Shown here piece after piece: positions 2,690-29,388 of a stretch of DNA of 35,802 bases (position 1 is its first letter; every line of letters begins with the position of its first letter). Below the pieces are notes generated by a model. That model did no database searches and was not told the origin of the DNA. It was given only the letters and a program-made list of their open reading frames with translations. The translations under genes were made by a program, and so were the position numbers. Origin of the DNA: Sphingorhabdus sp. EL138. GTDB taxonomy: Bacteria; Pseudomonadota; Alphaproteobacteria; Sphingomonadales; Sphingomonadaceae. Location: NCBI RefSeq assembly GCF_945882965.1, contig NZ_CAMCWY010000025.1:1-35802 (forward strand), in the 5' to 3' direction.

Positions 2690-2697
2690 GTAGAGAC

Positions 2698-5556: not shown

Positions 5557-5765
5557 ACAGTGTGGAGCGCCTGATCCACATGGCGAACCAGATTGCGACC
5601 AATCTGGCAACCGACGCTGCGCCCGTTGCTGCGGTCGCCGACCATATCCAGACATTCTGGGACCCGCGGATGAAAAAGATGATTTTTGCCCACGGGACCG
5701 ATGGCCTGTCGCCGGTTGCTGCGGCTGCCATTCGCTTGCTGGCCGAAGCGCAAAATGACGGTTGA
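5553..5765 (+). CDS. fdsD: Formate dehydrogenase delta subunit
   Basis: A 70-residue protein starting at the ATGA overlap with fdsA. The sequence MANQIATNL, then a VAAVADHIQTFWDPRMKKMI segment and a final SPVAAAAIRLLAE, is the recognisable FdsD pattern. FdsD is a small accessory protein of NAD-linked Mo formate dehydrogenases; known work places it in assembly or stability of the complex, and its precise role is not visible from sequence. The stop at 5763-5765 lies inside the first codons of fdhD, so the two genes overlap by 11 bases. Position directly after fdsA supports the call. Confidence 0.88.
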   Translation: MNSVERLIHMANQIATNLATDAAPVAAVADHIQTFWDPRMKKMIFAHGTDGLSPVAAAAIRLLAEAQNDG

Positions 5766-6555
5766 ACACGGCGCGAAACCTCTACGCTTTGCGGTGCTTA
5801 AACCCGGTCATGGTTCGGCCGAAGTTATAGAGCGCGCCGTCATATCCGAAGCACCCATCGCTATTGAATATAATGGTATCGGCTATGCCGTGATGATGGC
5901 CACGCCGATTGACCTTGAGGACTATGCCGTGGGGTTCAGCCTGTCCGAAGGTTTGATTGAGCGCCCAAGCGATATTCTGGCCCTCGACGCCCATAAGTCT
6001 GAATTGGGCTGGATATTGCGCATTCAGGTGCCGCAGAAAAATGCCGAGAAAGTGTTCGCCCGCGCCCGTCAGCGCGTCTCGGAAAGTAGCTGCGGCCTGT
6101 GTGGCATGGACAATCTCGACGAAGTCATGCGCCCTTTGCCGCGTGTAACGGCGCAGATTGCAGTCGCCGATGCGGCGATTTTTTCGGCGCTATCGGCATT
6201 GGGGTCGCACCAGACGTTGAATGCCGATACAGGATCTGCACATGCGGCGGCATTTTGCGCGCCCGATGGCTCCATCCTGATGACGCGCGAGGATGTTGGC
6301 CGTCATAATGCGCTCGACAAGTTAATTGGTGCACTTGCCAGCGCGGACATCAATGTCTCTGCCGGCTTTATCATCCTGACCGCGCGCTGCAGCCTTGAAC
6401 TGGTGCAAAAGGCAATCCTTGCTAACTGCCCAATGCTTGTGACGATTTCGGCTGCGACCGATCTAGCGATCAACATCGCTCAAAAATCCGGCCTTCGCTT
6501 GATCAGTCTGGCGCGCGCGGACGCGGCGCTTGCCGCAATGCCCCAAACCGGCTGA
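5755..6555 (+). CDS. fdhD: Formate dehydrogenase accessory sulfurtransferase FdhD (FdsC)
   Basis: A 266-residue sulfurtransferase that hands sulfur to the bis-MGD cofactor of formate dehydrogenase, required for active FdsA. The diagnostic CGLCG loop has C113 and C116. Other family signatures are ALGSHQTLNADTGSAHAAAF around 148-167 and EDVGRHNALDKLIG at 179-192, the GDP/cofactor-binding face. An open frame extends upstream to 5686, but the ATG at 5755 fits the family length and overlaps the fdsD stop, while the extra residues look like a shadow of fdsD. The last 53 bases overlap the convergent LysR gene. This is the last gene of the C1-oxidation operon. Confidence 0.94.
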   Translation: MTVEHGAKPLRFAVLKPGHGSAEVIERAVISEAPIAIEYNGIGYAVMMATPIDLEDYAVGFSLSEGLIERPSDILALDAHKSELGWILRIQVPQKNAEKVFARARQRVSESSCGLCGMDNLDEVMRPLPRVTAQIAVADAAIFSALSALGSHQTLNADTGSAHAAAFCAPDGSILMTREDVGRHNALDKLIGALASADINVSAGFIILTARCSLELVQKAILANCPMLVTISAATDLAINIAQKSGLRLISLARADAALAAMPQTG

Positions 6556-7417
6556 TTAACCAGCTTCGGAGCATCGAAATCGCGGGGTCCGCCAGATCAT
6601 CGGCGTGGAGTTTCAGATAATAACCATAGCCGTCTTCAATCACCGCGTCATAGGGCATCACGAGCCGCCCATCGGCAATTTCCTGCGCGAACATATCAAT
6701 ATCGCCCAAAAAGACGCCATTGGCTGCCATGGCATATTGCGCAACCGCAATCGTGGTGTCGAAGGCAAGGCCACCATGCGTGGCGACCGCCAACTGGCTC
6801 TGCCGAAGATAGGCCATCCACAACAGGTCGCGCGGCTCGCCATCCAGTTTGAGGTGCAAAAGCTCCTCACTTTTCAAAAACGCCTCCAGTGACTTACCCT
6901 GACTACTGGCTGCTGTTGCTGGCGAACATAGCGGCGCGACGCGTACCATCCACAGAAGGTCGGTAATCCGGTCATCGACATTGGGCCGGTCATACACAAT
7001 CGCCATGTCTAAATCCGTTGAGGGCAGTCCCGTCACATGCGCGCTTGAAACATCAAGGCGCAAATCGGGATGTTCAACGTGAAAATCGCGGAGCATCGGC
7101 AGGAACAATTGTTGCAGCAGCGACGGCGGCACATGCAGCCGCAGTGACCGGCCCGTCACCTCATCATCGCGAATGGAATTCATCGTTTGCTCGATCCGGT
7201 CGAGGCATTTGCTCACCACCGGCAACAATTCTTCGCCGGCCGCGGTGAGCGAAAGCCGCGACGCGTCGCGCAGGAACAATTGCTTGCCCAGCAGTTCCTC
7301 AAGCCCGCCAACATGACGGCTCATCGCACTTTGCGACACCGAAAGAGCCGACGCACCCCCGGTAAAGCTGAGATTCTGCCCGACCGCTTCAAACGCGCGC
7401 AGGGCATTTAATGGCAA
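6503..7417 (-). CDS. LysR-family transcriptional regulator (GcvA-like), probable regulator of module A
   Basis: A 304-residue LysR-type regulator. The N-terminus LPLNALRAFEAVGQNLSF and the helix-turn-helix with SQSAMSRHVGGLEELLG (about residues 28-44) resemble the GcvA branch; a LysR substrate-binding fold follows. The start taken here is a TTG at 7415-7417. No ATG is available, and an in-frame stop lies about 45 bases upstream, so only a few residues are in doubt (an ATT at 7430-7432 is the other possibility). The gene is divergent from the Rieske oxygenase across 176 bases that hold an inverted repeat, the classic arrangement for a LysR regulator and its target. It converges on fdhD with a 53-base overlap. 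Inducer unknown; a methylated amine or one of its products is an inference. Confidence 0.88.
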   Translation of the reverse strand: MPLNALRAFEAVGQNLSFTGGASALSVSQSAMSRHVGGLEELLGKQLFLRDASRLSLTAAGEELLPVVSKCLDRIEQTMNSIRDDEVTGRSLRLHVPPSLLQQLFLPMLRDFHVEHPDLRLDVSSAHVTGLPSTDLDMAIVYDRPNVDDRITDLLWMVRVAPLCSPATAASSQGKSLEAFLKSEELLHLKLDGEPRDLLWMAYLRQSQLAVATHGGLAFDTTIAVAQYAMAANGVFLGDIDMFAQEIADGRLVMPYDAVIEDGYGYYLKLHADDLADPAISMLRSWLISRFGALRQAPRPRAPD

Positions 7418-7593: not shown

Positions 7594-8805
7594 ATGGATT
7601 TGCAGCGGATAAGCGCGCTTTTTGAACAGCGTCGTGAAGGGCATACCTTGCCCCAGGCTTTATATACCCAAGCCGAGAGCTTTGATTTTGATATGGCCGC
7701 GATTTTCGGCCAAAGCTGGTTGATGGCCGGTATGGAATGCGAATTGCCAAAAGCAGGCAGTTACATCTCCATGATGGTCGGCAAATGGCCTGTGGTTATC
7801 ACGCGGGACAAGGAAGGCACGATCCGCGCGTTTCACAATAGTTGCCGCCATCGCGGCTCCATGATTTGCGCACTTGGCAGTGGCACAACGCCAAAGTTGG
7901 TCTGCCCCTATCACCGTTGGACCTATGATCTTGACGGCTCCTTATTCGCAGCTGGCCGGATGGACAGCAGCTTCGACAAAAGCGAACATGGCCTAAAACC
8001 TGTTGCGATTGAATGCATATCGGGCACGATCTTTATTTGCCTGTCGGATACGCCGCCGCCAATTGACGACTTCCGTGCAAAACTGACCGAATATGCCGCG
8101 CCGCATAATCTGAAAGATGCAAAGCTAGCGTATGAAAGCGTTCTGGTCGAAAATGCCAATTGGAAACTGGTGATGGAAAATGGCCGGGAATGCTATCATT
8201 GCAGCACCGGTCATCCAGAATTGTCGAAGACATTTCCCGTCGGCATGTCAAAGCATTTTGACAGCGGCCATGATGAACGCGTTGTCGCGTTTGAAGCTCA
8301 AATGGACGCGCTTGGCCTGCCGCAAACCCCGGTTGAGGGCCATTATTGGCAAATCGCGCGCTTTGCGTTGAATGAAGGCTGCGTTTCGATATCCGGCGAT
8401 GGCCAGCATCTGTCCAAAAAGCTAATGTGTGACGCCAATGGCGGCGATATCGGTTCGATGCGCTGGGCGGTTGACCCGCACTGCTTTGTCCACTGCACAG
8501 CAGACCATGCTTTCATGTTCAGCGCCATGCCCGTTGGTCCCAACGAAACCCACGTCACTGGCAAGTGGTATGTGCATAAGGACGCCGTTGAAGGCGTCGA
8601 TTATGATGTGGAAAAACTCATCGCGTTATGGACCGTCACCAATTTGGAAGACAAGGCGCTGGCCGAGAACAATCAACTTGGCGTCAACAGCCTCGGCTAC
8701 ACACCAGGCCCTTATTCGCAAGAAGCCGAAATGCTGGCACAGCGTTTTACCGACTATTATTGTGACAAGGCCCGTGACTATATTGCGACCCATGGCAAAG
8801 GATAA
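7594..8805 (+). CDS. Rieske non-heme iron oxygenase, alpha subunit (module A; betaine/amine demethylase type)
   Basis: A 403-residue ring-hydroxylating-type oxygenase. The Rieske [2Fe-2S] ligands are C84-x-H86 and C104-x2-H107. The mononuclear iron site is ENGRECYHCSTGHPEL with H202 and H207, and D353 in NLEDKALAENNQLG is the expected third ligand. Enzymes with this ECYHC pattern (GbcA, proline-betaine demethylases) remove an N-methyl group as formaldehyde. An upstream TTG at 7576 is possible, but the ATG at 7594 has an AAAGG element nearby and gives the family length. It opens an eight-gene overlapping operon, overlapping the PLP enzyme by 14 bases. It differs clearly from the second Rieske protein at 28170-29384, so a separate substrate is likely. 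No reductase gene adjoins it. Confidence 0.9.
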   Translation: MDLQRISALFEQRREGHTLPQALYTQAESFDFDMAAIFGQSWLMAGMECELPKAGSYISMMVGKWPVVITRDKEGTIRAFHNSCRHRGSMICALGSGTTPKLVCPYHRWTYDLDGSLFAAGRMDSSFDKSEHGLKPVAIECISGTIFICLSDTPPPIDDFRAKLTEYAAPHNLKDAKLAYESVLVENANWKLVMENGRECYHCSTGHPELSKTFPVGMSKHFDSGHDERVVAFEAQMDALGLPQTPVEGHYWQIARFALNEGCVSISGDGQHLSKKLMCDANGGDIGSMRWAVDPHCFVHCTADHAFMFSAMPVGPNETHVTGKWYVHKDAVEGVDYDVEKLIALWTVTNLEDKALAENNQLGVNSLGYTPGPYSQEAEMLAQRFTDYYCDKARDYIATHGKG

Positions 8806-10051
8806 CATCAAGGGGTTGCGTCCCGAAACGCTTGCGGTTGCGTATGGCTATGACCCTGAAATGGGGATGGGGTCAGTCAAACCACCGATTTTCATGACAT
8901 CGACATTCGTCTATCCATCGGCGCAGCATGCCAAATATGTGCATGAGGCCTATTTTGACGGCACTGGGCCGCTGGTTGGGCAAACCAACCATATCTATTC
9001 GCGGCTTGGCCATCCCGGTCTGGATTTTCTGGAAGCTCGGCTTGCCGCCATTGATGGCGCGCAAGATGCCGTGGCCTATTGCAGCGGTATGGCCGCGCAC
9101 TCCAGCATTGCGCTTGCACATATGCGCGCAGGCGATAGCGTTCTGCATGGGCGGCCAATTTATGGCGGGGTAGACTTTCTCTACAATGTCATGATGCCGC
9201 AATTCGGATCGCATGTGACCGCCTATCTGGACGGCACGGATGAAGATCATGTCTGGGCCGCAGCCGATGCAGCGATCGCAAAGGGTCCTTTAAAGCTTAT
9301 CATTGCTGAAACACCCGCCAACCCCACTGCGGCGATTGTTGATCTCGACCTGATGGTTCGTATTGCCGATGACATTGGTGCAAAACACGGACATCGCCCG
9401 CTTGTGGTGGTCGACAATACGCTGCTTGGTCCCTTTGCGCAGCGGCCGATTGAACAGGGTGTCGATCTGTGTATTACCTCGCTCACCAAATATTGCGGCG
9501 GTCATAGCGACTTGCTGGCTGGCGGGATTTCGGGCCGTAAGGAACTGATTGATCAGCTCAAGCTGCAACGGACAACTTGGGGCAATCATCTTGATCCCTT
9601 CACGGCTTGGTTGGTGCTTCGGTCGTTGGAATCAGTCGCCGTGCGAACTGAACGGGCCATGAGCAATGCGCGCTGTGTCGCCGAATATCTGCGCGATCAC
9701 CCAAAGGTCGCCGGTGTCACCTATTTGGGTTTTCTGCCCGAAGGGTCGCGACAGCGCGCCGTGTATGATCGACAGTGCAAGGCTGCGGGATCGACCTTTT
9801 CCTTCCATCTGCATGGCGGCGAGGCTGAGGCGTTCCGGATGCTGGATCAGCTCAAGCTGTTGAAATTGGCGGTCAGCCTTGGCGGGTCAGAGACATTGAT
9901 CTGCCATTCGGCGAGCACAACGCATTATGCAGTCGCGCGTGAACAGCGATTGGAAGGCGGGATAACCGATGGCACGATGCGGCTATCGGTCGGGTTGGAA
10001 CATGTCGACGATCTTATCGGCGACTTGAAACAGGCATTGGAAGCAGTTTGA
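8792..10051 (+). CDS. Cystathionine gamma-synthase/methionine gamma-lyase-family PLP enzyme of unknown substrate
   Basis: A 419-residue PLP enzyme of the Cys/Met metabolism family. Visible active-site features are YSR at 69-71 (phosphate contact from the neighbouring subunit), the stacking Y124, cofactor aspartate D208 in VVVDNTLLGPF, Schiff-base lysine K233 in SLTKYCGGHSD, SLGGSETL at 362-369, and substrate-carboxylate arginine R397 in MRLSVGLE. The position after Y124 is Gly-Gly, so the cysteine typical of true methionine gamma-lyases is absent. The family does beta/gamma elimination or replacement. A longer open frame reaches back to 8429, but the ATG at 8792 matches the family N-terminus and couples to the Rieske gene. 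A PLP lyase inside a demethylase operon is odd and suggests a sulfur- or oxygen-bearing amino-acid intermediate, which is inference. Confidence 0.88.
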   Translation: MAKDNIKGLRPETLAVAYGYDPEMGMGSVKPPIFMTSTFVYPSAQHAKYVHEAYFDGTGPLVGQTNHIYSRLGHPGLDFLEARLAAIDGAQDAVAYCSGMAAHSSIALAHMRAGDSVLHGRPIYGGVDFLYNVMMPQFGSHVTAYLDGTDEDHVWAAADAAIAKGPLKLIIAETPANPTAAIVDLDLMVRIADDIGAKHGHRPLVVVDNTLLGPFAQRPIEQGVDLCITSLTKYCGGHSDLLAGGISGRKELIDQLKLQRTTWGNHLDPFTAWLVLRSLESVAVRTERAMSNARCVAEYLRDHPKVAGVTYLGFLPEGSRQRAVYDRQCKAAGSTFSFHLHGGEAEAFRMLDQLKLLKLAVSLGGSETLICHSASTTHYAVAREQRLEGGITDGTMRLSVGLEHVDDLIGDLKQALEAV

Positions 10052-11514
10052 TGGATCTGAACTTTACCGGAACTGATGTGTGCGCCGTCAATGGCACACA
10101 AAGCGCACCTGAAGCCACATATGACCTTGTTGTCATTGGCGCGGGGCCAAGCGGCATTACTGCCGCTATCGAAGCCGCAGCCAGCGGAGCTTCGGTTCTT
10201 CTGGTGGATGAAAATCCGGTGTCCGGCGCGCTAATGGGCAATGATACCCCGCTCTATTTCGGGGGTCGGATGACGGCCGCGACACAGAATACAGACCGGA
10301 TGCTTGAAGTCATTTTCATGAGCATGCCTGATCTTGAAAAGGCAATGGACGCCGGTGTTGAACTGCTTCTCGGCACCACCGCTTGGGGCGTGTATCGCAA
10401 CGGGCCGGGCGTGCAGAGCTTGCCAGAGCAAGTTGTCGGCCTTGCCGATGCAGAACGCTCTTGGCTGGTCGGCTTTGACCGGATTGTGCTAGCAACAGGC
10501 GCACGCGACCTTGCCATTGCCTTTCCCGGATGGAACCAGCCTGGTGTGATGGGCGCAGCCGCCTTGCAGATGTTGCTGTCGCGCTATGGCGCCTTTTCCG
10601 GGCGGCGCATCGCCATTTTGGGGTCGCATGACTTGGCGCTCGAAACCGCGATTCTGGCGGTTGCGCATGGGCTGGATGTGGCTGGCTTGGTTGAAGTGCG
10701 CGATGCCCCGCAAGGCGACGCTGCGCTGATCAATAAGATTACGTCCGCAGGCATTGCCATATATTATGGGCAGAGCATAGCTGCAAGCAAAGGCGGGCTG
10801 GATGGGATCGAATCCATCACCCTGACCGATGGAACCAACATTGCCTGTGATACCGTATGTGTCGCCATTGGCCTTGTCCCCTCAATTGAGCTGGTCGATG
10901 CCATGCATGGCCCAAGGGCGCTGGACCCAGCGCGGGGTGGATATATTCCGGCAGGAGAGCCAAATGTAACAGCCGTTGGCCTGTGCGCTGGCCTGCCCGA
11001 CACTGGTTTTGACCATGTCGCCTATCGGATGGATTGGGTGCGTGCGGCGCTGCGCGTCAATGCGCCCGATACAATCATCTGCCAATGTGAGGAAGTCACA
11101 CTCGCAGATCTGATCGGCATTCAGCCGCCCAATTATTTGCCTCGCCCGGCGGCGATTCAAGCCCGCTCGCTTGACACGCTGCTGAACGATGGCCCGGCCA
11201 ACCCAGACCAAATCAAGCGGCTGACGCGCTCTGGCATGGGTGTGTGTCAGGGTCGTCGCTGCCGCGATCAGGTGGCGATGATGCTGGCCATTGAATCGGA
11301 CAAGCCATTTGGCACTATTCCGCTTGCCTCGCACCGCGCACCCGTGCGCCCTCTGCCGCTCAAAATATTGGCGGAATGGGATGAGCCTGCAGCAATGGAT
11401 GCGGCATGGGATGTCTGGTTCGGCATTCCAACCCAATGGGTGCCCGTCGAAGATATCGGCACAGAATATCAGGATGCGCATCGCGAGATGCTCTACACGG
11501 GGATGTATACATGA
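10051..11514 (+). CDS. NAD(P)/FAD oxidoreductase with BFD-like [2Fe-2S] site (opine oxidase/HcnB-like subunit)
   Basis: A 487-residue flavoprotein. It has an N-terminal FAD fold (VVIGAGPSG, residues 27-35), a second dinucleotide fold (IAILGSHDLALETA, 187-200), and a C-terminal cluster segment with C344, C346, C399 and C404 (CQCEEVT ... GVCQGRRC). This layout is shared by HcnB, octopine/nopaline oxidase OoxA and the alpha subunits of multimeric proline or hydroxyproline dehydrogenases. These work with a DAO-type partner that holds the substrate flavin, and the next gene is such a partner. The ATG overlaps the upstream stop by one base. Likely role: electron transfer from oxidation of a secondary amine or imino acid. 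Family is clear; substrate is unknown. A separate small [2Fe-2S] third subunit, often present in these complexes, is not seen. Confidence 0.87.
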   Translation: MDLNFTGTDVCAVNGTQSAPEATYDLVVIGAGPSGITAAIEAAASGASVLLVDENPVSGALMGNDTPLYFGGRMTAATQNTDRMLEVIFMSMPDLEKAMDAGVELLLGTTAWGVYRNGPGVQSLPEQVVGLADAERSWLVGFDRIVLATGARDLAIAFPGWNQPGVMGAAALQMLLSRYGAFSGRRIAILGSHDLALETAILAVAHGLDVAGLVEVRDAPQGDAALINKITSAGIAIYYGQSIAASKGGLDGIESITLTDGTNIACDTVCVAIGLVPSIELVDAMHGPRALDPARGGYIPAGEPNVTAVGLCAGLPDTGFDHVAYRMDWVRAALRVNAPDTIICQCEEVTLADLIGIQPPNYLPRPAAIQARSLDTLLNDGPANPDQIKRLTRSGMGVCQGRRCRDQVAMMLAIESDKPFGTIPLASHRAPVRPLPLKILAEWDEPAAMDAAWDVWFGIPTQWVPVEDIGTEYQDAHREMLYTGMYT

Positions 11515-12647
11515 GCGGCTCAGAGGTAGTCATCGTCGGCGGTGGCGTTACGGGTCTCAGCGCAGGCTGGTGGCTGGCCAAGTCCGGTGTGAAGGTCACT
11601 GTGCTCGACAAGTTCATTGTCGGCTGGGAAGCCTCCGGACGCAACGGCGGCGGTGCATCCCATTATTCCAGCCCCTTGTTCGATGAAGAACAGCGGCTTT
11701 GGCCGCAAATGGATGCGCTACTCGGCTACCCGACGGAACATCAAAAGGGCCGCATCCTGATCGCGATGACGGAACGTCAGTGGGACCAATATCGCTTCAT
11801 TGCCGAACGCCACACCCGCCTCAACCACCCGGTCGAGCTGCTTGACGTCAAGCAAGTTCAAGAGGCCGTTCCGCTGGCGGGCGACAATTGCTTTGGCGGC
11901 GTGCACTATAAATTTGGCGGCCATGCCAACCCGCAACGCACGGTTCAGGCTTATGCCTGGGCGCTGCAAGACTTAGGTGGCAAAATCATTCAGCACAGCC
12001 CAGTCACGGGCTTTGAAACCGCTGGTGGCAAGGTTACTGCGGTGAAGACGGGAAATGCGACTTATGGGTGCGATGCTGTTGTCGTCGCCGCCGGGCCGCA
12101 AATCCCCCAGCTGATGGCGCAATTGGGGGTTGATGTGCCTCTGGCCGCCGCGCGCGCGGAAATGATCATTACTGAGCCTGCCCCCATGATGCCGCTGGGC
12201 GGCGTCGATGGGCATAAGATTTATGGCCGTCAGACGTTGCGCGGCAATCTGGCCTATGGCGGCGGTCCGCATGAATGGCTCGATGTGGACGCAGATGGTC
12301 CGGCGGCGCGGCCCTCCACACCATTGGCGCGCAACCTTGCCAAAAGGGTGGCCGAACTGCTGCCCAAGGCCGCGCATCTCAACGTCATTCGCAGTTGGGC
12401 GGGCGTGATTGAAAATTCGCCTGATGGCCGTCCAATCATCGACCGCCTAACCAGCCCCGACAATGTCGTTGTCGCATCGATGTCCAGCGTTGGCTTTGGC
12501 CTGTCGCCAGCATCGGGTCATGCGATCCGCGATCTGGTGATTGATGGCGCATGCTCCTTTACCAATATCGACCTTCTCAAGCTGTCGCGCTTTGACGGTC
12601 TTGAAAAGGATTGGCGTGAAAAGCGTGGGTGGATGCCGATCGCATGA
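11511..12647 (+). CDS. FAD-dependent D-amino-acid-oxidase-family dehydrogenase (HcnC/opine oxidase beta-like)
   Basis: A 378-residue DAO-family flavoprotein. The FAD-binding motif VVIVGGGVTGLSAGWWLA starts at residue 6, followed by EASGRNGGGASH, the flavin-contact region of this family. The C-terminal RSWAGVIENSPDGRPIID and the GFGLSPASGHAI segment complete the fold. It resembles the catalytic beta subunit of opine, proline and hydroxyproline dehydrogenases, and forms an adjacent pair (four-base ATGA overlap) with the preceding NAD/FAD protein. Likely reaction: oxidation of a secondary amine or N-substituted amino acid to an imine. The open frame continues upstream to 11406, but the ATG at 11511 gives a clean N-terminus right before the FAD motif. 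Substrate cannot be read from sequence. Confidence 0.87.
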   Translation: MSGSEVVIVGGGVTGLSAGWWLAKSGVKVTVLDKFIVGWEASGRNGGGASHYSSPLFDEEQRLWPQMDALLGYPTEHQKGRILIAMTERQWDQYRFIAERHTRLNHPVELLDVKQVQEAVPLAGDNCFGGVHYKFGGHANPQRTVQAYAWALQDLGGKIIQHSPVTGFETAGGKVTAVKTGNATYGCDAVVVAAGPQIPQLMAQLGVDVPLAAARAEMIITEPAPMMPLGGVDGHKIYGRQTLRGNLAYGGGPHEWLDVDADGPAARPSTPLARNLAKRVAELLPKAAHLNVIRSWAGVIENSPDGRPIIDRLTSPDNVVVASMSSVGFGLSPASGHAIRDLVIDGACSFTNIDLLKLSRFDGLEKDWREKRGWMPIA

Positions 12648-13900
12648 GCCGATATTCAGCCTTCAGCCTGCTGCGCGGCGCCTTAAACGGGCAAAAGCAT
12701 TGGCAGCCAGCATGGCGCGACCCAGAGCCCAAATCGCATTATGATATCCTTATCATCGGCGGCGGTGGCCATGGGCTGGCAACGGCTTATTATCTGGCGA
12801 AGGTTCATGGTCTGAAGAATATTGCCGTTCTGGAAAAAGGCTGGATTGGCGGCGGAAATACCGGACGCAATACGACGATTGTGCGGTCCAATTATCGGCT
12901 TGAACCGTTGCATAATCTCTTCGAATTTGGCCTGAAGCTTTGGCATGGCCTCAGCGATGAATTGAATTACAACGTCATGTTCAGCCCGCGTGGCGCGATG
13001 TTCCTCGGTCATAGCGACGCCGATATGGTCAAGCTGGCCGAGCGCGGCGACGCGATGCGCTGTGACGGGATTGATGCCGATCTGCTGACCCGTGATCAGG
13101 TGGCAAAGCTTGAGCCGCTTTTGGATATGTCGCGCGATGCGCGCTTCCCCATTCAGGGTGGTCTGATCCAGCGCCGGGGTGGCACCGCACGGCATGATGC
13201 GGTTGCCTGGGGCTATGCGCGCGGCGCGGACAGCCTGAGCGTCGACATTATTCAAAAATGCGAAGTCACAGGCTATGTGCGCGATGGCGACGCCGTGGTT
13301 GGCGTGGAGACAACACGCGGCCGCATTGGCGCGGGGCGCGTCGGCATTTGCGTTGCAGGCAATAGCGGCCATGTCGCGGGCTTGGCCGGCCTAAAACTGC
13401 CGATTGAATCCCAAACCCTGCAAGCCATGGTGACCGAAGGGGTCAAGCCGATGATCAACAGCGTGATCATGTCCCAATCCTTGCATTGCTATATCAGCCA
13501 GTCGGACAAGGGCGGCGTCGTCTTTGGCGGCGACCCGGATAATTGGCCAAGCTATGCCCAGCGCGGCAACCCGATGGTTATGGAAGGCGCTGTGGCGCAA
13601 GGCCTTGCGCTCGTGCCTGCGTTATCCCGCCTGCGCATGGTGCGAACGTGGAGCGGGGTTACCGATATGAGTTTTGATGGCGCGCCGATCATTGGCGAAA
13701 CGCCGGTCAGGAACCTCTTTCTCAACGGTGGTTGGTGCTATGGCGGCTTTAAAGCGACACCCGCGTCCGGCTATACCTATGCCCACACGCTTGCGACGGG
13801 AAAGCCGCATGCGCTGAATGCACCCTTCTCGCTTGATCGCTTTGAACGCGGCGCAACTATTGATGAAACGGGGAGCGGTCCCATGCCGAATAGCCGCTAA
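12644..13900 (+). CDS. soxB: Sarcosine oxidase beta subunit paralogue (module A)
   Basis: A 418-residue SoxB-type protein, the subunit that carries the non-covalent FAD and the covalent FMN interface of heterotetrameric sarcosine oxidase. GGGGHGLATAYYLAK (residues 39-53) is the FAD motif, [18 protein letters not shown] the SoxB signature, and H184 in GGTARHDAVAW is the histidine expected to bind FMN covalently. The reaction oxidises the N-methyl group of sarcosine or a similar secondary amine, giving methylene-THF or formaldehyde and hydrogen peroxide. The ATGA overlap with the DAO gene sets the start at 12644; a TTG-type extension to 12629 is unlikely. A second SoxB (26588-27841) shares the same motifs but differs through the substrate region, so functions may differ. 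Confidence 0.92.
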   Translation: MSRYSAFSLLRGALNGQKHWQPAWRDPEPKSHYDILIIGGGGHGLATAYYLAKVHGLKNIAVLEKGWIGGGNTGRNTTIVRSNYRLEPLHNLFEFGLKLWHGLSDELNYNVMFSPRGAMFLGHSDADMVKLAERGDAMRCDGIDADLLTRDQVAKLEPLLDMSRDARFPIQGGLIQRRGGTARHDAVAWGYARGADSLSVDIIQKCEVTGYVRDGDAVVGVETTRGRIGAGRVGICVAGNSGHVAGLAGLKLPIESQTLQAMVTEGVKPMINSVIMSQSLHCYISQSDKGGVVFGGDPDNWPSYAQRGNPMVMEGAVAQGLALVPALSRLRMVRTWSGVTDMSFDGAPIIGETPVRNLFLNGGWCYGGFKATPASGYTYAHTLATGKPHALNAPFSLDRFERGATIDETGSGPMPNSR

Positions 13901-14163
13901 TGATGCGCATCCCCTGCCCCCATTGCGGCCCACGCACGCAATCCGAATTTATCTATGAACGCACATTGGATTCCGTCGTCCCGCTGAACGCGCCGACAGA
14001 AGAGGCCATGGCAAAGCTTTTCACCCGCAATAATCCGCGCGGCGTGGATGACGAAATCTGGCGACACACTTATGGCTGCCGGGCATGGATGGTTTTGACG
14101 CGCCACCGCGTCACCAATGAAATTTCCGGCTGCCGCGCCATCGGGCCAGAGGCTTTATCATGA
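13900..14163 (+). CDS. soxD: Sarcosine oxidase delta subunit paralogue (module A)
   Basis: An 87-residue zinc-binding SoxD protein. The ligands C6 and C9 (CPHCGPR) and H56 and C60 (RHTYGC) match the four zinc ligands known for the delta subunit of heterotetrameric sarcosine oxidase. Between them lies the conserved RNNPRGVDDEIWRH stretch that packs against the alpha subunit. Two adjacent ATG codons are possible (13900 and 13903); the first overlaps the soxB stop by one base (TAATG). It ends in an ATGA overlap with soxA. The subunit is structural and has no catalytic role of its own. Confidence 0.93.
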   Translation: MMRIPCPHCGPRTQSEFIYERTLDSVVPLNAPTEEAMAKLFTRNNPRGVDDEIWRHTYGCRAWMVLTRHRVTNEISGCRAIGPEALS

Positions 14164-16895
14164 TCAACTTCCGCTTTGATGGTAAAGTCTATACCGCGCA
14201 GGCAGGCGACACGCTGGCGGCGGCATTGTTGCGCAACGGCATTGGCCTTGTCGGCCGAAGCTTCAAATATCACCGCCCACGCGGCATCATGACCGCAGGG
14301 ATTGAGGAGCCTAACGCGCTCGTCACCGTCGGCGAAGGTGGCAGAGCGGAGCCCAATACCCGCGCGACCGATGTTTTCGTCTATGAAGGCCTTGTCGCCA
14401 AAAGCCAGAACCGCTGGCCAAATTTGTCGTTCGATGTCGGGGCGGCTTTGGGCCTCGCTGCGCCTGCTTTGTCCGCCGGTTTTTACTATAAAACCTTTTT
14501 TGGTTCGGCCAAAAAATGGATGTTCTACGAATATTTTATCCGCAAAGCGGCCGGCCTTGGCAATGCACCCACGCTTACGGACCCCGACCGTTTCAGCCAG
14601 CGTGCGGCCTTTTGTGATGTCTTGGTCGTCGGCGCTGGCCCCGCAGGTATGCAGGCCGCGCTCGACGCTGCCGAAGGCGGCAAGCGCGTCATCTTGGTCG
14701 AACAGGACCATATTCTCGCCCCGTCGTTGCTGCGCGATTCCCAGGAGCAGGATGCAGCTTGGGCCAACGCCACCGCCGCCCGCATCCGCGCCGCAGGGGG
14801 CATCATCCTCACACGCACCACGGCTTCGGGCTATTGGGAACATGACCTCGTCACCCTGACGCAGCGCATATCGGAGCCGGGGCAAGTCCCCACACACGAT
14901 GTGGCGCAACGTCTATGGCATGTCCGCGCAGGCCAAGTCATTCTCGCCACCGGAAGCATTGAGCGGCCCATGGCCTTTGCCCATAATGACCGCCCCGGCG
15001 TCATGCTGTCGCAAGCTGTGCGCACTTATGTCCGGCGGTTTGGCGTCGTTCCCGGCAAACGCGTCGTGATCGCAACCAACAATGACGATGCCTATAAAAG
15101 CGCGGAGGCGCTAAAAGATGCAGGCGCGCAGATTGCTGCGATCCTCGACGCACGGCCAGCCCCTGCGGGTGCCAACAGCGGTCATCGCGTTTACAACAAC
15201 GCCGTTCCGCTTTCGACTCAAGGCGCGCGGCATTGCCTGAAAAGCGTGCAGGCGCTGGTCGATGGCAAGACGATGGACTGGGATGCCGATCTGCTTGCTG
15301 TGTCCGGCGGGTTTACGCCTGTTGTTCACCTGCACATGCAAGCGGGCGGGACGCTTGATTGGAATGAAGATGCGCAAGCCTTCATCCCCGTCAGTTCGCG
15401 CCAGAATGTGACGACCATCGGCGGGGCCGCAGAGCCGCAAGCGATATTCAAAATGGTACCCGTTTCCAGCCCTAAGAAAAGCTTCATCGATTTCCAAAAT
15501 GATGTGACATTGGCCGATGTCGATCTCGCTTGGGCCGAGGGCTATCGCTCGGTTGAGCATCTCAAACGCTACACCACTTTGGGCATGGCCACCGATCAGG
15601 GTAAGCTCAGCAATATGGCCGCTTTGGGGCGTCTGGCACAGAAACAGGGCGTCGCCATTCCCGAAGCCGGTTTGACCACATTCCGTCCCCCTTATACGCC
15701 GGTCACGATGGGCTTGATCGCGGGTGCTGGCGCGAAAGATGCAGGCGCGCATATCCGCCGCCTTGCATTATATGAACTCCATGCGGCAAAGAACCCGATT
15801 TGGCAGCCATTGGGTTACTGGTTCCGCCCGCGCGCGTACCCCATAAGCGGCGAAAGTTTGGCGCAAGCTGCGCTGCGTGAGGCAAAGGCCGTGCGCAACA
15901 ATGTCGGGATGACCGATGTGTCAACGCTCGCCAAATTTGAAGTCAGCGGCCCCGATGCTGCCGCTTTCCTCGACATCATCTGCGCCACCACAATAAGCAA
16001 ACTGGCCGTCGGGCGTGGCCGCTACACCTTCATGCTGCGCGAAGATGGCATTGTCTTTGATGATGGCACCGTGTGGCGGCTTGACGAAAACCGCTATCTG
16101 CTCACCAGCTCCACCGGCGGCGCAGACCGCATGGCGACGCATATCTCTTATGTCCGCCAATTTCTGTGCCCACATTTGCGTGTCTCTGCCGTCAATGTGC
16201 AGGAACATTATGCTGGTATTGCCATTGCTGGGCCACAGGCGAAAGCGGTACTCACCGCCTTAATCGGTGCAGAGCCACCACGCCACATGTCAACCGTTCC
16301 GGCGGCAATCGCGGGCGTTCCGGTCATCATCTTGGCCGCCAGCTACAGCGGCGAACGCGCCTTTGAAATCTATGTCGATGCCAGCCAAGCAGAAGCCGTC
16401 TGGGTCGCCTGTGAAAGCGAAGTCTTCGCCCAAGGCGGCACGTTATACGGGCTTGAGGCGATGGAGTTTCTGCGCATTGAAAAGGGCCATTTGGTCGTTG
16501 GCGGCGAGGTCGATGGACGCATGACGCCGCATGATCTGGCGCTCGACAAGATGCTTAATAAGGCGGGCGGGTATATCGGCGCATCGGGCCTGTCGCGCCC
16601 TGCCTTGTCCGAAACCGGGCGGCGGCAATTGGTCGGGTTGGAGGCGATTGCGGGCGACATTCCGGAAGGCGCGATGCTGATCCCCAGCGAGGGCGCGTCA
16701 CCGCAAGGCCATGTCAGCGCGGCGGCGTTCCGCATCGTGACGGGCGGGTCGGTTGCGCTTGGCCAATTGACCGAGGGCTTTTCGCGGCATGGGGAAATCC
16801 TGATCGCAAGCTCCCCCACACGCGGGCAACAGGCGCGGGTGCGCGTTGTGGCCCCGCATTTCTATGATGCCGCAGGGGAGCGTTACCGTGACTGA
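14160..16895 (+). CDS. soxA: Sarcosine oxidase alpha subunit paralogue, short form (module A)
   Basis: A 911-residue SoxA-type protein. It has an N-terminal ferredoxin-like fold without cluster cysteines (SFKYHRPRGIMTAG around 34-47), an FAD/NAD fold with GAGPAG at 158-163, a second nucleotide region containing FGVVPGKRVVIATNNDDA, the TTLGMATDQGKLSN segment, and a C-terminal GcvT (aminomethyltransferase) domain that would take the methyl group onto tetrahydrofolate. Compared with the module B SoxA (953 residues) it is shorter and diverged: after VEQD it reads HILAPSLLRDSQEQ where module B has ELGGGALADP, and the C-terminal motif is EKGHLVVGGEVDGR rather than EKGFIIVGQDTDGT. Both forms occur in the family. 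Start fixed by the overlap with soxD. Probably oxidises a secondary N-methyl amine other than, or as well as, sarcosine. Confidence 0.92.
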   Translation: MINFRFDGKVYTAQAGDTLAAALLRNGIGLVGRSFKYHRPRGIMTAGIEEPNALVTVGEGGRAEPNTRATDVFVYEGLVAKSQNRWPNLSFDVGAALGLAAPALSAGFYYKTFFGSAKKWMFYEYFIRKAAGLGNAPTLTDPDRFSQRAAFCDVLVVGAGPAGMQAALDAAEGGKRVILVEQDHILAPSLLRDSQEQDAAWANATAARIRAAGGIILTRTTASGYWEHDLVTLTQRISEPGQVPTHDVAQRLWHVRAGQVILATGSIERPMAFAHNDRPGVMLSQAVRTYVRRFGVVPGKRVVIATNNDDAYKSAEALKDAGAQIAAILDARPAPAGANSGHRVYNNAVPLSTQGARHCLKSVQALVDGKTMDWDADLLAVSGGFTPVVHLHMQAGGTLDWNEDAQAFIPVSSRQNVTTIGGAAEPQAIFKMVPVSSPKKSFIDFQNDVTLADVDLAWAEGYRSVEHLKRYTTLGMATDQGKLSNMAALGRLAQKQGVAIPEAGLTTFRPPYTPVTMGLIAGAGAKDAGAHIRRLALYELHAAKNPIWQPLGYWFRPRAYPISGESLAQAALREAKAVRNNVGMTDVSTLAKFEVSGPDAAAFLDIICATTISKLAVGRGRYTFMLREDGIVFDDGTVWRLDENRYLLTSSTGGADRMATHISYVRQFLCPHLRVSAVNVQEHYAGIAIAGPQAKAVLTALIGAEPPRHMSTVPAAIAGVPVIILAASYSGERAFEIYVDASQAEAVWVACESEVFAQGGTLYGLEAMEFLRIEKGHLVVGGEVDGRMTPHDLALDKMLNKAGGYIGASGLSRPALSETGRRQLVGLEAIAGDIPEGAMLIPSEGASPQGHVSAAAFRIVTGGSVALGQLTEGFSRHGEILIASSPTRGQQARVRVVAPHFYDAAGERYRD

Positions 16896-17379
16896 ACTGA
16901 CAATCTCCACCCTGCCCGCCGCCCCGCTGCATGTGTTTGAAATCTGGAGCAACCCAGCGACTGTGGCCAAGCGATTCGAAGCGACCTGCGGCTTTGCCTT
17001 ACCCCATATGGGCCGTTCGGACGGCAGCGATGCGCTGCGCCTGATCCGTTTTGAACCCACGGTCTGGCTGGTCGAGGGCGATGCGTCGGCACTGTCCGCC
17101 ATATTGTCCGATGACGGCGCGGTGACCGCCATCGGCGGCGGCATCGTCCGCATCCGCCTATCGGGCAAAGGCTGGCGCACGCTCCTGATGGAAGGCGGCG
17201 TGTTCGACGCCGAAAGCCCCACTTTCGCCGCCGGATGCAGCGCAGCGACGATCATAGACCATGTCAACGTCCGCCTGCACGTGGTCGATGAAACCACCTG
17301 CGTCGCCTTTGTGCCCTTAAGCTTCAGTCAGGGCCTGCTGCACTTTTGGGAGCAAGCCGCGGGGAGTTTGGTGGAGTAG
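16888..17379 (+). CDS. soxG: Sarcosine oxidase gamma subunit paralogue (module A)
   Basis: A 163-residue SoxG-like protein, the small subunit that resembles a half GcvT domain and stabilises the alpha-beta dimer. Recognition rests on position after soxA and on weak family features: SALRLIRFEPTVWLVEG-like strands (here DALRLIRFEPTVWLVEG), AAGCSAATIIDHVNVRLHVV and the closing FVPLSFSQGLLHFWEQAA. The start taken is the GTG at 16888, which overlaps the soxA stop by eight bases; an ATG further upstream at 16846 would lie deep inside soxA. The same eight-base soxA/soxG overlap is found in module B. Last gene of the module A operon; no convincing terminator follows. Confidence 0.8.
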   Translation: MTELTISTLPAAPLHVFEIWSNPATVAKRFEATCGFALPHMGRSDGSDALRLIRFEPTVWLVEGDASALSAILSDDGAVTAIGGGIVRIRLSGKGWRTLLMEGGVFDAESPTFAAGCSAATIIDHVNVRLHVVDETTCVAFVPLSFSQGLLHFWEQAAGSLVE

Positions 17380-17443: not shown

Positions 17444-18484
17444 CTAAGACTGCATCTCTCTCGCCAGCTGTGCGATCAGTTCAGCCGCAGGAATGGAACG
17501 CGCAAGCGGTGCGCCTTGCCCTGCCCAATGTGCTCCGAAACCACCCTCTCCCGATGCCTTTGCAGCGGCATCGAGCGCCTTTCCTGCATCATAAGCTATT
17601 GGGTAGTCCGGAGGGGATTGCGGCACTTGCTGTGCGAGGCCTGTGAACCCGTTAGACAAGCAACGCGCAGGACGACCAGAGATGCCGCGGGTCATGATCG
17701 TGTGTTCAGCGGCACTACTGAAAAGGGCCGCGCGGTAAGCGTCGTCAGCACTGCTTTCTGGGCAAGCGATAAATGCCGTTCCAAGCTGAGCCGCTACAGC
17801 TCCGAGTTTAAGCGCCGCTCTAACGCTTTGCCCGTCCATGATGCCGCCCGCAGCGATGACGGGGAGTCCCCCACGCCTGACAAGCACGCGGGTAAGCGCC
17901 AGCGTGCCAAGGCAATCGTCCGGTAGAGCGGGGTCGAACATACCACGATGCCCCCCAGCCTCAAAGCCTTGGGCTACGACTGCATCAATGCCCGCGTTTT
18001 TTGCAGCATCTGCTTCCGAAAGGCTCGTCGCCGTCGCGACAAGGAAGCAACCAGCATCCCTCAACGCCTTTATCTGTGCGGCCGCTGGAAACCCAAAATG
18101 GAAGCTGACCACCGCAGGACGAAGATCAACTAAGGCGCGAAGCATTTGGTCGTCTTCAAGGAAGCTCCGATAGATAACGCGCAGTGCCGCAGGTGGGTTG
18201 GCACCAAATTTCCTGAACGTGGGAGCAAGCGCAGATAGCCACGCTGCTTCGCGACCTGCGTCCTGCTCCGGACAGGCGTGAACGAACACATTCACATTGA
18301 ACGCTCGTTCCGTAAGAGCGCGCAGCTCCTCAATCATCGCTCGCGCACCGGCAGCGTCGGTTGCTCCAACGCCAATTGAGCCAAGCCCCCCCGCATTTGA
18401 AACAGCGGCGGCTAATTTAGGAGTAGAGACGCCCGCCATAGGTGCCTGAATGATGGGAAGGCTAAGGCCGAGTCGGTCGAGCAT
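17444..18484 (-). CDS. Nitronate monooxygenase-family FMN protein (2-nitropropane dioxygenase type)
   Basis: A 346-residue TIM-barrel flavoenzyme. LGLSLPIIQAPMAGVSTPKLAAAV at the N-terminus, the catalytic-histidine loop GFEAGGHRG (H179), the phosphate-binding AAGGIMDGQSV (211-221) and GTAFIACPES are the nitronate monooxygenase signatures. Such enzymes oxidise alkyl nitronates (for example propionate 3-nitronate) with FMN and O2. The frame is open upstream to 18631, but the extra 49 residues show no family similarity, so the ATG at 18484 is preferred. It converges on soxG of module A with a 64-base gap and stands alone, with no obvious link to the demethylation genes. Some relatives are enoyl reductases, so the exact activity is uncertain. 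Confidence 0.87.
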   Translation of the reverse strand: MLDRLGLSLPIIQAPMAGVSTPKLAAAVSNAGGLGSIGVGATDAAGARAMIEELRALTERAFNVNVFVHACPEQDAGREAAWLSALAPTFRKFGANPPAALRVIYRSFLEDDQMLRALVDLRPAVVSFHFGFPAAAQIKALRDAGCFLVATATSLSEADAAKNAGIDAVVAQGFEAGGHRGMFDPALPDDCLGTLALTRVLVRRGGLPVIAAGGIMDGQSVRAALKLGAVAAQLGTAFIACPESSADDAYRAALFSSAAEHTIMTRGISGRPARCLSNGFTGLAQQVPQSPPDYPIAYDAGKALDAAAKASGEGGFGAHWAGQGAPLARSIPAAELIAQLAREMQS

Positions 18485-18908
18485 GTGCGCATGATGCTCC
18501 CTGACGCGACCGTCCGCAATTGGGTCGGGAGCGGACCGTCTGCTTTTAGCGATTGCTCTTTGTGGAGGCCTGTCCCTTACATCGCTCTGACGTCGCGTCA
18601 CCATCCGATCAACCACCACCCAAGTTGACAATCACTCCCTGTTCCTATAATGTTCCAACGTTCTTTGACAGCCAAATGCGGCATAGAATACTTCCCGTTC
18701 ATACAAGCTTCTCTCTCGCCGCAATGTTGTAGGAAATTTTGTTACGCGTCCGACATATTGCGCAATCTGGTCAAGTGCGATTTGGGTGTGAACTTGCACG
18801 CAATTCTGGGGGTTTTGGGGGCCTTCTTTGCGGCGGGCGGGCTTTGCGCATATCCGCCGCTTCGCAAAAAAGTCTGGCTCTTTGACGCCCGACGGAGCGA
18901 CCCTATCG
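18485..18908. other. 424-base stretch without a convincing gene
   Basis: This stretch separates the nitronate-monooxygenase-like gene from the hydrolase, both on the minus strand. It must hold the promoter of the former and any terminator of the latter. The part at 18485-18631 is an in-frame extension of the monooxygenase frame without family similarity. A rightward frame from 18650 runs antisense into the hydrolase and has no recognisable sequence. A consensus-like sigma-70 promoter points right at 18625-18651. GCGGCGG and CCGCCGC form a loose hairpin near 18830-18860, but no T-run follows it on the minus strand, so no terminator is called. Confidence 0.6.
18625..18651 (+). promoter_or_regulatory. 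Consensus-like sigma-70 promoter pointing away from the nearest gene
   Basis: TTGACA at 18625-18630 and TATAAT at 18646-18651 are both perfect consensus hexamers, 15 bases apart, two short of the optimum. A second TTGACA follows at 18665-18670, with TAGAAT 13 bases later. Transcription would run rightward into the 3' end of the minus-strand hydrolase, where no sense gene is seen. It could make an untranslated or antisense RNA, or be a chance match. Perfect boxes of this kind are uncommon in GC-rich alphaproteobacterial DNA. Confidence 0.4.
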
Positions 18909-20210
18909 TTACTTCGCCGCTTCCTGATGCTGCAAGGTCATCCCTTGTGCATGGCGGCGTTGGAAGCCCTTCCATAATGTCACGCCTTCGCCGCCGGGGC
19001 TATATGCGCCCCATGCTGTTCCGGCAGGGGCATTCCATTGCCCGTCATCCGAATTTTCAACGGCCATATGCAGATACGCCGCCTTGCTGGCGTCTTGTCG
19101 CAAATGCACGGCCAGAAATGCGGTGATGAAATGCAGGTTGATGGCGTTAATCCGGTCCTGCCGCCAGATCGGGTCTTCAAACCAGTCGATATCCCACACG
19201 GTCCCGCGCATTTCGGACGGGGCCGGATTGAGCGCAATCGAATGGCCCGCCTGCCTATAGGTCAGCAAAGTGCGATCACTATTTAGAGCGCCACCAAAGA
19301 CCGCAAGCGCGCCGGTTTTATAGTCAACAGTCGCGTCACTATCGCCGTGAATCAGAAGCAAAGGCGCGGTGAGTGCGGCAAGACCTTCTGCGCCCCATGC
19401 GCTGCGTGGCGCGCCGCCAGCCGGTGCCAATGCCACGATGGCCTTCACCCCTTTTAACGCCATGGCATCGGCCTGCGCACGCCCCCGCGCAAATGTCTTG
19501 AGCCAGCCGCCCGCGACCAGATCCATATTCGGCCCCGCCGGATCCAGCGATGCCCCGCCAGCGGTCAGCACGCCATAGCCGCCTTGTGAATAGCCAATCA
19601 GCGCAACATTATCCGCATCGATCAAGTTGCCCAAAACAGCGCGCAGTTCGCTTGCGACAAAAACGATGTCGCGCGGTCGGTTGAAACTCGGTGCGGCGCG
19701 GGTACTGGGCGACACGATATAGGGGTTTGGGTCACGGTGATGAATGGCGGCAACGACATATCCCTTGGACGCCAAATTTTCCGTCAACCACGTCATCATG
19801 GCGGGATTGTTGCTATAGCCATGGCTGATGATCACCAAAGGATGCTTGCCGCCTGCTGCCTTCGCGCCGCTAACCGCCATGCCCTTTTGCGAGAAGTTTA
19901 CCGGCGGGAACGGTGGTTCGGCCCACAGGCTTCCGCGATAGACAACTGGCTTTGCGCCATTTTTGACCGTTGCGGGGTACCAAATATCCACCCGCAACTT
20001 GCGATTAACAAGGGGAACTTCGGTGCCGCCGGAAGCCCCATTTTCGACATCCGGCTGATTTTTATGGGTCAAAAGGACCGAACGGAAACCAACCTTATTT
20101 GGACCTAAGGCCGCAAGTTCCGGCGCGTCAACGCCCGGCATACTCGGAACGCCCGCGTGGATTGGCGCGGGGAGCAAGGCCAGGCAAGCAAGCCAGATGC
20201 AGCGGATCAT
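18909..20210 (-). CDS. Exported alpha/beta hydrolase (dienelactone hydrolase/PAF-acetylhydrolase-like)
   Basis: A 433-residue alpha/beta hydrolase. A signal peptide is likely at residues 1-19 (short positive start, hydrophobic CIWLACLALLPAPIHA), placing it in the periplasm or outside. The nucleophile is S208 in IGYSQGGYG, the acid is probably an aspartate in LIHGDSDATV (289-296), and the base is H323 in QAGHSIAL. HGYSNNP at 130-136 is the oxyanion-hole strand. Substrate is probably a small ester or amide; nothing more specific is visible. The frame is open upstream to 20324, but the ATG at 20210 begins the signal peptide and forms an ATGA overlap with the stop of the LysR gene, so the two are translationally coupled. 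The link to osmolyte use is an inference. Confidence 0.82.
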   Translation of the reverse strand: MIRCIWLACLALLPAPIHAGVPSMPGVDAPELAALGPNKVGFRSVLLTHKNQPDVENGASGGTEVPLVNRKLRVDIWYPATVKNGAKPVVYRGSLWAEPPFPPVNFSQKGMAVSGAKAAGGKHPLVIISHGYSNNPAMMTWLTENLASKGYVVAAIHHRDPNPYIVSPSTRAAPSFNRPRDIVFVASELRAVLGNLIDADNVALIGYSQGGYGVLTAGGASLDPAGPNMDLVAGGWLKTFARGRAQADAMALKGVKAIVALAPAGGAPRSAWGAEGLAALTAPLLLIHGDSDATVDYKTGALAVFGGALNSDRTLLTYRQAGHSIALNPAPSEMRGTVWDIDWFEDPIWRQDRINAINLHFITAFLAVHLRQDASKAAYLHMAVENSDDGQWNAPAGTAWGAYSPGGEGVTLWKGFQRRHAQGMTLQHQEAAK

Positions 20211-22923: not shown

Positions 22924-22927
22924 TGAA

Positions 22928-22935: not shown

Positions 22936-22956
22936 CAAAGGTGCGATGCCGCTCGG

Positions 22957-26586: not shown

Positions 26587-26587
26587 A

Positions 26588-29384: not shown

Positions 29385-29388
29385 GCGT

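Follow-up and report, generated by a model that had tools for sequence, protein, structure and literature searches.

What compound is broken down by an operon that joins a betaine-type Rieske oxygenase to a pyridoxal phosphate (PLP) enzyme, a flavoprotein pair and the subunits of a sarcosine oxidase? The question is raised by a 35,802-nucleotide stretch of Sphingorhabdus sp. EL138 (Sphingomonadales; contig NZ_CAMCWY010000025.1 of assembly GCF_945882965.1, positions 1 to 35,802), hereafter the window, in which the eight overlapping genes that an earlier note on this DNA had described at 7594-17379, here named module A, all lie on the plus strand, with overlaps of 1-14 bases between neighbours; a divergent LysR gene belongs to the same unit. 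Module A is a real, conserved though patchy unit, and we consider it rather probable, on comparative grounds, that it is a catabolic operon in which an alpha-betaine loses its N-methyl groups one after another before a PLP lyase acts on the product. As its substrate we tentatively put forward the trimethylhomoserine head group (glyceryl-trimethylhomoserine) derived from the betaine lipid diacylglyceryl-trimethylhomoserine (DGTS). The genes of the unit are the following:

6503-7417, minus strand: divergent LysR regulator, GcvA-like, with helix-turn-helix and substrate domains (GcvA model 176.5 bits, cut-off 288)
7594-8805, plus strand: Rieske oxygenase (PF00355 and PF00848), proposed betaine N-demethylase (trimethyl to dimethyl)
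8792-10051, plus strand: Cys/Met-metabolism PLP enzyme (PF01053, E 4.4e-95), proposed terminal beta/gamma-lyase
10051-11514, plus strand: OoxA-like flavin adenine dinucleotide (FAD)/[2Fe-2S] subunit (PF07992, SO_alpha_A3/BFD-like C-terminus), proposed amine dehydrogenase
11511-12647, plus strand: DAO-type FAD subunit (PF01266, E 4.7e-64), proposed N-demethylating catalytic subunit
12644-13900, plus strand: SoxB, beta subunit, of a divergent heterotetrameric sarcosine-oxidase type (TIGR01373, 654.8 bits, cut-off 529.45)
13900-14163, plus strand: SoxD, delta subunit (PF04267, 73.2 bits; TIGR01374, 75.1 bits, cut-off 116.5)
14160-16895, plus strand: SoxA, alpha subunit, with Fer2_4, SO_alpha_A3 and a folate-binding GCV_T domain (TIGR01372, 989.4 bits, cut-off 1164)
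16888-17379, plus strand: SoxG, gamma subunit, a weak match (no Pfam match; TIGR01375, 44.7 bits, cut-off 143.95)

The Rieske, PLP, flavoprotein-pair and Sox identities given in the earlier note agree with the Pfam and NCBIfam calls, SoxG by a weak NCBIfam match only. Its "full SoxBDAG set" stands as far as all four subunit genes are present; only SoxB passes its NCBIfam cut-off, however, and the set is divergent.

Gene order was compared in two collections of relatives, in which genes were called with a codon-usage script and loci where a gene runs off its contig were excluded from the counts. With the OoxA-like protein as query, the contigs of named genomes yielded 51 loci, almost all of them titled as Sphingomonadales or one of its genera (Sphingorhabdus, Novosphingobium, Chakrabartia and Sphingopyxis, several of them cultured strains). 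Genome draws at E ≤ 1e-100 over 385 genomes of the class and 299 of the phylum returned only the window genome and one other, G356; breadth was therefore taken from the named contigs and from the family of G356, a second alphaproteobacterial family, here f63. The PLP gene lies between the Rieske and OoxA genes in all 44 scorable Sphingomonadales-type loci (the other seven comprise six cut by contig ends, plus L045), which argues that the arrangement is not due to chance; absence of the PLP and flavoprotein genes from this position in close relatives was one of two outcomes that the earlier note had named as refuting. SoxB was also seen in 46 of the 49 such loci that carry a DAO gene, and LysR in 41 of the 51 (misses include contig ends) as well as in 11 of 19 f63 loci.

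Among the f63 genomes, 24 of 199 contain OoxA at E ≤ 1e-90. Loci were read in 19 of these 24 core genomes (L057 plus 18 stretches, five genomes being left out), and 17 of the 19 show the Rieske gene, 15 of those 17 together with PLP; the contigs of L091 and L094 are too short to show a Rieske. Locus L090 has the same gene order as the window, SoxBDAG included, and in L057/L059, L087, L088 and L100 the Sox genes are nearby in convergent orientation. A plasmid of Novosphingobium capsulatum carries LysR-Rieske-PLP-OoxA-DAO together with TonB receptors, a further LysR gene and a hydrolase of the CocE/NonD type. Strains in culture that have the operon include Sphingorhabdus wooponensis 03SU3-P, Chakrabartia godavariana PRB40 and Novosphingobium capsulatum HAMBI_0103. 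Across all loci with a Rieske and a separate OoxA gene, PLP stands between them in 59 of 61, a count that sets two Paracoccus loci aside and does not include L084, where OoxA and DAO are fused. Furthermore, PLP genes of A-type score (≥ 577 bits) occur in 23 of the 25 module-A genomes.

The exceptions to this order are three. In L045, OoxA-DAO is preceded by a major facilitator superfamily (MFS) gene and no PLP match was found in about 10 kb upstream, and two f63 loci (L085 in genome G767, L093 in G752) read Rieske-OoxA-DAO with PLP not in place, an A-type PLP gene being located elsewhere in each genome (658 bits in G767, 638 bits in G752). G767 has two A-type Rieske genes and a split module A: L138 reads alpha/beta hydrolase-LysR-Rieske-PLP with convergent A-type SoxGADB, and L085 holds OoxA-DAO. 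In G752 the PLP gene is alone (L139), and A-type SoxBDAG adjoins the alpha/beta hydrolase (L140). The parts of module A thus still associate after rearrangement in G767, whereas the G752 PLP gene does not. Regarding wider distribution, the OoxA family in public genomes and metagenomes comprises 2731 proteins at E ≤ 1e-60 among 8000 scored candidates, a cut that also takes in more distant relatives; no relative was found in the viral collection.

The PLP enzyme is a putative alpha-amino-acid enzyme with no specificity assigned. Residues Y69, R71, Y124, D208, K233 and R397 are present in 62 of 62 rows (many of them close relatives; L024, a short row, was not included, and L105, a Rhizobium protein, was treated separately), and these we take to supply the PLP lysine, the PLP-binding Asp, Tyr and Arg, and the alpha-carboxylate Arg of Cys/Met-metabolism enzymes. 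It shares fold family and catalytic residues with methionine gamma-lyase and the PRK07049 proteins, including its nearest solved chains 5ijg and 7swh, and is borderline to the PRK07049 model NF005455 (503.5 bits in the window and 516.8 for L057, cut-off 504). Unlike methionine gamma-lyase, it fails the model TIGR01328 (334.3 bits, cut-off 549.7) and has Gly126 in 61 of 62 rows, with Ala in one, at what is presumably the active-site Cys position of that enzyme; Asp128, found in all 62, is Glu in 5ijg, 7swh and L105. Catalytic residues are kept, but the specificity residues of methionine gamma-lyase and the cystathionine enzymes, as we assign them, are not. Enzymes of this family commonly eliminate side-chain substituents, and several members use O-substituted homoserines; since the fold family needs a primary alpha-amine, the PLP enzyme is placed after demethylation.

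By its best family model and by the solved chains 3vca and 4qup, the Rieske protein of module A (Rieske A) is nearest to the alpha-betaine demethylases. The best NCBIfam model is GbcA (445.4 bits, below the cut-off of 670), a cut-off also missed by three B-cluster Rieskes of f63 (413-438 bits, cut at locus edges) and three Paracoccus Rieskes (510-529 bits), and which is therefore strict. Nearest solved chains are 3vca, 4qup and 3n0q; of these the proline-betaine demethylase 3vca, which we take to be Stc2, is the closest (428.5 bits to the profile) and sits in a different operon, and we know of no PLP lyase or OoxA-DAO pair with Stc2. Residues C84, H86, C104, H107, H202, H207 and D353, presumably the ligands of the Rieske cluster (CxH...CxxH) and the mononuclear iron, are invariant in 13 rows. 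In a quick tree of 42 chosen rows, with rows below 330 residues left out and a long-branch warning for the module B Rieske of the window and L104, Rieske A proteins form one clade (Shimodaira-Hasegawa-like approximate likelihood-ratio test 99).

Regarding the electron donor, the query was one Paracoccus reductase adjoining its Rieske, which we take for GbcB without a family test (it is annotated as a hybrid-cluster NAD(P)-dependent oxidoreductase). No relative was found at 1e-30 in 14 of the 25 module-A genomes (10 of the 16 near-complete ones), including the window genome, whose best match has E 2.9e-5 and 23.8 bits; OoxA may consequently donate electrons to the Rieske protein. The window genome has two GbcA-like Rieske oxygenases in the window, yet no relative of the Paracoccus GbcB-like reductase.

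Of 72 loci with OoxA, 69 also have DAO, and L040, L053 and L097, which do not show it, end at or just after OoxA; the locus maps show the two encoded side by side, as in OoxAB-type enzymes. In L084 (9979-12606) they are fused in one open frame of 875 residues, with OoxA at residues 8-485 and DAO at 511-869. Cysteines C344, C346, C399 and C404 of the OoxA-like subunit, a CxC...Cx4C motif, are invariant in 14 rows, and the solved chains nearest to DAO are 1y56_B and sarcosine oxidase beta. The combination of such an OoxA-like subunit with a DAO subunit recalls opine oxidase (as we understand OoxAB) and Pyrococcus PH1363-type complexes (1y56, which we take to be a dehydrogenase complex of this type), from which module A differs in having no separate small [2Fe-2S] subunit gene and, in L084, a single chain. 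Related pairs (OoxA 37-39% identity) are found on plasmids of Paracoccus denitrificans and P. yeei, with a GbcA-type Rieske, the putative GbcB, a glycine-betaine-type ATP-binding cassette (ABC) transporter and SoxBDAG; no PLP match was found in the approximately 29 kb read. The pairing, the L084 fusion and the Paracoccus clusters suggest that OoxA-DAO may be read as one DEMETHYLATING complex. By analogy, Paracoccus suggests a position between Rieske and Sox, the place of dgcAB in the glycine-betaine pathway, and the occurrence of Rieske, OoxA-DAO and Sox without PLP suggests that OoxA-DAO would be a demethylation step and PLP an add-on.

The Sox genes fall in two types, A and B, a split that reflects scores to one profile (A5) and not a tree: full-length A-type SoxB proteins of f63 reach 783-840 bits, those of the other, B-type class 550-564 bits, and the window SoxB falls in the A-type class. 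As in sarcosine oxidase 1vrq, all four subunit types and the GCV_T folate domain are present in module A, with ARHD where 1vrq has AKHD, which we take to be the flavin-histidine site; unlike 1vrq, its SoxA, SoxD and SoxG lie below the family cut-offs and A-type SoxB reads WCYGGFK, against WGTGGFK in 1vrq and in the second cluster of the window, module B, convergent with module A:

21334-31905, minus strand: module B, with a betaine/carnitine/choline (BCCT) transporter, SoxGADB, a cupin-like gene, a GbcA-like Rieske and an 838-residue protein resembling dimethylglycine dehydrogenase

A-type SoxB is present in 20 of the 199 f63 genomes, 15 of which also have the OoxA core (Fisher p 1.2e-12 if the two draws are treated as one set of 199 genomes). 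A strict link between Sox and core is contradicted by nine f63 core genomes, fragmented assemblies among them, in which no A-type SoxB reaches 1e-190, and by five with A-type SoxB and no OoxA at 1e-90. Among the 24 f63 genomes searched, B-type Sox adjoins a Rieske gene in all nine that show it, and in eight of those nine a GbcB-like reductase lies within a few kb on the same contig; the B cluster of the window genome lacks such a reductase. B-type Sox directly follows module A in L048 and L054, and follows LysR/BCCT genes in L038, L044 and L052.

From the gene content, conserved order, residue conservation and co-occurrence observed, we infer every reaction, their order and the substrate as follows. 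The substrate class would be an N,N,N-trimethylated alpha-amino acid with a side-chain leaving group; in the case of DGTS, exported esterases would first strip its fatty acids outside the cell. The Rieske protein would then take the first methyl (trimethyl to dimethyl), with release of formaldehyde, and OoxA-DAO and A-type SoxBDAG would carry the product from dimethyl to monomethyl to free amine, in one order or the other, with Sox passing its methyl to tetrahydrofolate to form methylene-tetrahydrofolate. On the freed primary amine, the PLP enzyme would catalyse a beta- or gamma-elimination yielding a 2-oxo acid and ammonia. With DGTS this would be a gamma-elimination across the glycerol-homoserine ether of O-glyceryl-homoserine, giving 2-oxobutyrate, ammonia and glycerol; methylmalonyl-CoA mutase is present in the window genome, so a propionyl-CoA/2-oxobutyrate route fits. 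The one-carbon units would be oxidised by formate dehydrogenase and neighbouring formaldehyde-type genes. The succession of Rieske, flavoprotein pair or Sox, and PLP elimination proposed in the earlier note is thus favoured by the comparative evidence; the sulfonium substrate that it also allowed is unsupported, with no gene evidence and a Rieske closest to alpha-betaine demethylases.

Module A is best called a new variant of the betaine demethylation pathways. PMC12093977 describes glycine-betaine catabolism by gbcAB, dgcAB and soxBDAG in Pseudomonas and Vibrio natriegens, with the Rieske first, a flavoprotein second and SoxBDAG third, and one-carbon units going to formaldehyde and folate. 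Module A would share this succession, and a BCCT transporter is nearby in the window. It differs in several respects: nothing closely related to the GbcB-like reductase of Paracoccus was found in its genome, OoxA-DAO takes the place of DgcAB among the eight genes (the comparison covers module A), the Sox set is divergent, and there are an extra Cys/Met-type PLP enzyme and linked exported hydrolases.

The unit is, moreover, wider than eight genes: the LysR gene, an exported ester-hydrolase-like gene and one-carbon oxidation genes often travel with it. Two of the window's remaining features are relevant here (mobA, fdhD and the export leader are assigned by eye):

18909-20210, minus strand: alpha/beta hydrolase with an export leader, resembling poly(ethylene terephthalate) (PET) hydrolases and platelet-activating factor (PAF) acetylhydrolases (Pfam)
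298-6555, plus strand: formate dehydrogenase unit fdsG, fdsB, mobA, fdsA, fdhD

Residues S208, D292 and H323 of the hydrolase are invariant in nine rows, and PET hydrolases, cutinases and PAF acetylhydrolases make up most of its solved relatives (best 60 of 215). Of the 51 Sphingomonadales-type loci, 29 have the gene close to module A and eight more end too soon or nearly so; in f63 it occurs in six loci at 42-48% identity (L083, L084, L087, L099, L138, L140). A CocE/NonD-type protein cluster recurs in six f63 loci and a TonB-receptor cluster in seven loci. MFS transporters and FAD_oxidored proteins each recur in six loci, with L057 among them in both cases. The recurrence of exported hydrolase, CocE/NonD and TonB receptors hints at an esterified, larger compound. 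In f63, loci L059 and L089 likewise have formate dehydrogenase genes adjoining module A or A-type Sox. Class III alcohol dehydrogenase genes adjoin the core in L057, L086 and L089, and L140-L142 have a PurU-like gene upstream of A-type Sox; the FrmA, FghA, PurU, homocysteine-methyltransferase and most TonB labels of neighbours were given by eye.

DGTS matches this profile, being an alpha-betaine with a side-chain leaving group, found esterified and widespread in algae. According to PMC9892843, its head group is trimethylhomoserine ether-linked to glycerol, and DGTS and related betaine lipids replace phosphatidylcholine in many algae; PMC10132767 reports that phosphate-starved Phaeobacter makes DGTS, and a freshwater dinoflagellate study (PMC4837943) lists it in algae, ferns and fungi, its own species having mainly diacylglycerylcarboxyhydroxymethylcholine (DGCC). 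The enzyme of the head-group cleavage step is called unidentified in a 2023 review, and our literature searches, with most subscription papers outside their scope, found no recognisable paper on the module A gene set or on genes for DGTS head-group catabolism. The full version, in which the PLP enzyme would cleave the ether of the DGTS head group and OoxA would feed demethylation electrons back to the Rieske, is one we hold with somewhat more doubt than the substrate itself. If true, module A would be a concrete, testable sphingomonad candidate for DGTS head-group breakdown; even without DGTS, a conserved demethylate-then-lyse route distinct from glycine-betaine catabolism would imply an overlooked organic nitrogen source.

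Several observations weigh against this interpretation. Chemistry and ecology, rather than a diagnostic gene, led to the choice of DGTS, and the PLP family usually handles ester and thiol leaving groups, a glycerol alkoxide being poorer. The BtaA domain family PF11899 was not found in the window genome; its own synthesis of DGTS was rejected accordingly, and DGTS, if used, would come from outside. The alpha/beta hydrolase is missing from at least six loci with readable flanks (L028, L038, L046, L048, L052, L054), CocE/NonD proteins are also X-Pro-peptidase-like, so that a peptide substrate is possible, and no transporter (BCCT, MFS or ABC) is constant near module A. Eight of the 25 module-A genomes show no SoxB at E 1e-80, by which Sox is not obligatory, and two have no PLP gene of A-type score, to be added to the displaced or missing PLP genes of L045, L085 and L093. 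OoxA was not found at E 1e-100 in any of the 12 other same-family genomes of the phylum draw, which makes the core patchy. Finally, a TmpA-like dioxygenase gene in L057 and MTTB-family genes in L048 suggest glycine-betaine metabolism nearby.

Among other explanations, the same demethylation scheme might serve a different alpha-betaine that carries a beta or gamma leaving group. Candidates would be homoserine betaine in free form, the betaines of methionine and cysteine, and esters or peptides of any of these, on which the PLP enzyme would act as a C-S or C-O lyase. This is a possibility to be entertained with the same reserve as DGTS; it shares all the comparative evidence given above, and a substrate conjugated as ester or peptide would suit both the CocE/NonD hydrolases and the ABC binding protein of oligopeptide type found in L090. 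Conversely, TonB receptors and exported hydrolases point to a larger, acylated substrate, and we know of no such betaine as an abundant freshwater compound.

A second glycine-betaine pathway, in which Rieske, OoxA-DAO and Sox would lead to glycine and the PLP enzyme would act in methionine/homocysteine turnover tied to methyl traffic, we judge unlikely. It would explain why the best model of Rieske A is GbcA and why the Paracoccus OoxA-DAO cluster has a glycine-betaine-type transporter, and it accords with several neighbours: the TmpA-like gene of L057, which may, we presume, supply glycine betaine from a phosphonate, the MTTB-family genes of L048, and the homocysteine S-methyltransferase-like protein of L025, L029 and L037. 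In addition, 15 of the 25 module-A genomes have no B-type SoxB, and module A could be the sole route there. PMC12478193 describes PF06253 proteins as glycine-betaine methyltransferases and reports that, in Ruegeria, methionine synthesis and glycine-betaine demethylation share subunits. Nevertheless, glycine betaine is made less likely by the separate Rieske/B-type-Sox cluster of the window genome and of nine f63 module-A genomes. Rieske A misses the GbcA cut-off (445 of 670 bits), though other candidates miss it too, the PLP enzyme is under the methionine gamma-lyase cut-off (334 of 549.7) and A-type Sox is a score class of its own; moreover, 59 of 61 loci retain the PLP gene, yet no such lyase is needed for glycine.

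That the PLP gene is a mere neighbour of an operon that just demethylates some betaine is very improbable: Paracoccus and L045 have OoxA-DAO without a nearby PLP gene and two f63 loci lack it in place, but the gene overlaps its neighbours in the window, persists in two families as well as on a plasmid, occurs at A-type score in nearly all module-A genomes and, in G767, stands with Rieske and A-type Sox at another locus (in G752 it is alone). A carnitine-type, non-alpha betaine was rejected, the carnitine monooxygenase structure scoring 131 bits against about 360 for 3vca and 4qup, and for homarine, a further lead, nothing in the literature search could be connected to module A genes.

Minor observations concern the surroundings of these loci. 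In the window, a partial frame at 52-297 looks by eye like the last part of a class III alcohol dehydrogenase (FrmA), and a nitronate-monooxygenase-family gene (17444-18631, minus strand) sits between SoxG and the alpha/beta hydrolase. In L057 (4714-6485, minus strand) the TmpA-like dioxygenase gene (358 bits, cut-off 400) and an HD-domain gene adjoin module A, and in L048 (1449-6468) a formate-tetrahydrofolate ligase and two MTTB-family methyltransferases are directly beside it. The homocysteine S-methyltransferase-like protein of L025, L029 and L037 lies among or near formate dehydrogenase genes, and a conserved trio (PuuC-like aldehyde dehydrogenase, 3-hydroxyisobutyrate-dehydrogenase-like and quinone-reductase-like) is near the core in L057, L086, L095 and L096. 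At the right end of the window (34183-35684), a tRNA-Arg is followed by a recombinase-like gene, named by eye, possibly the edge of an integrated element.

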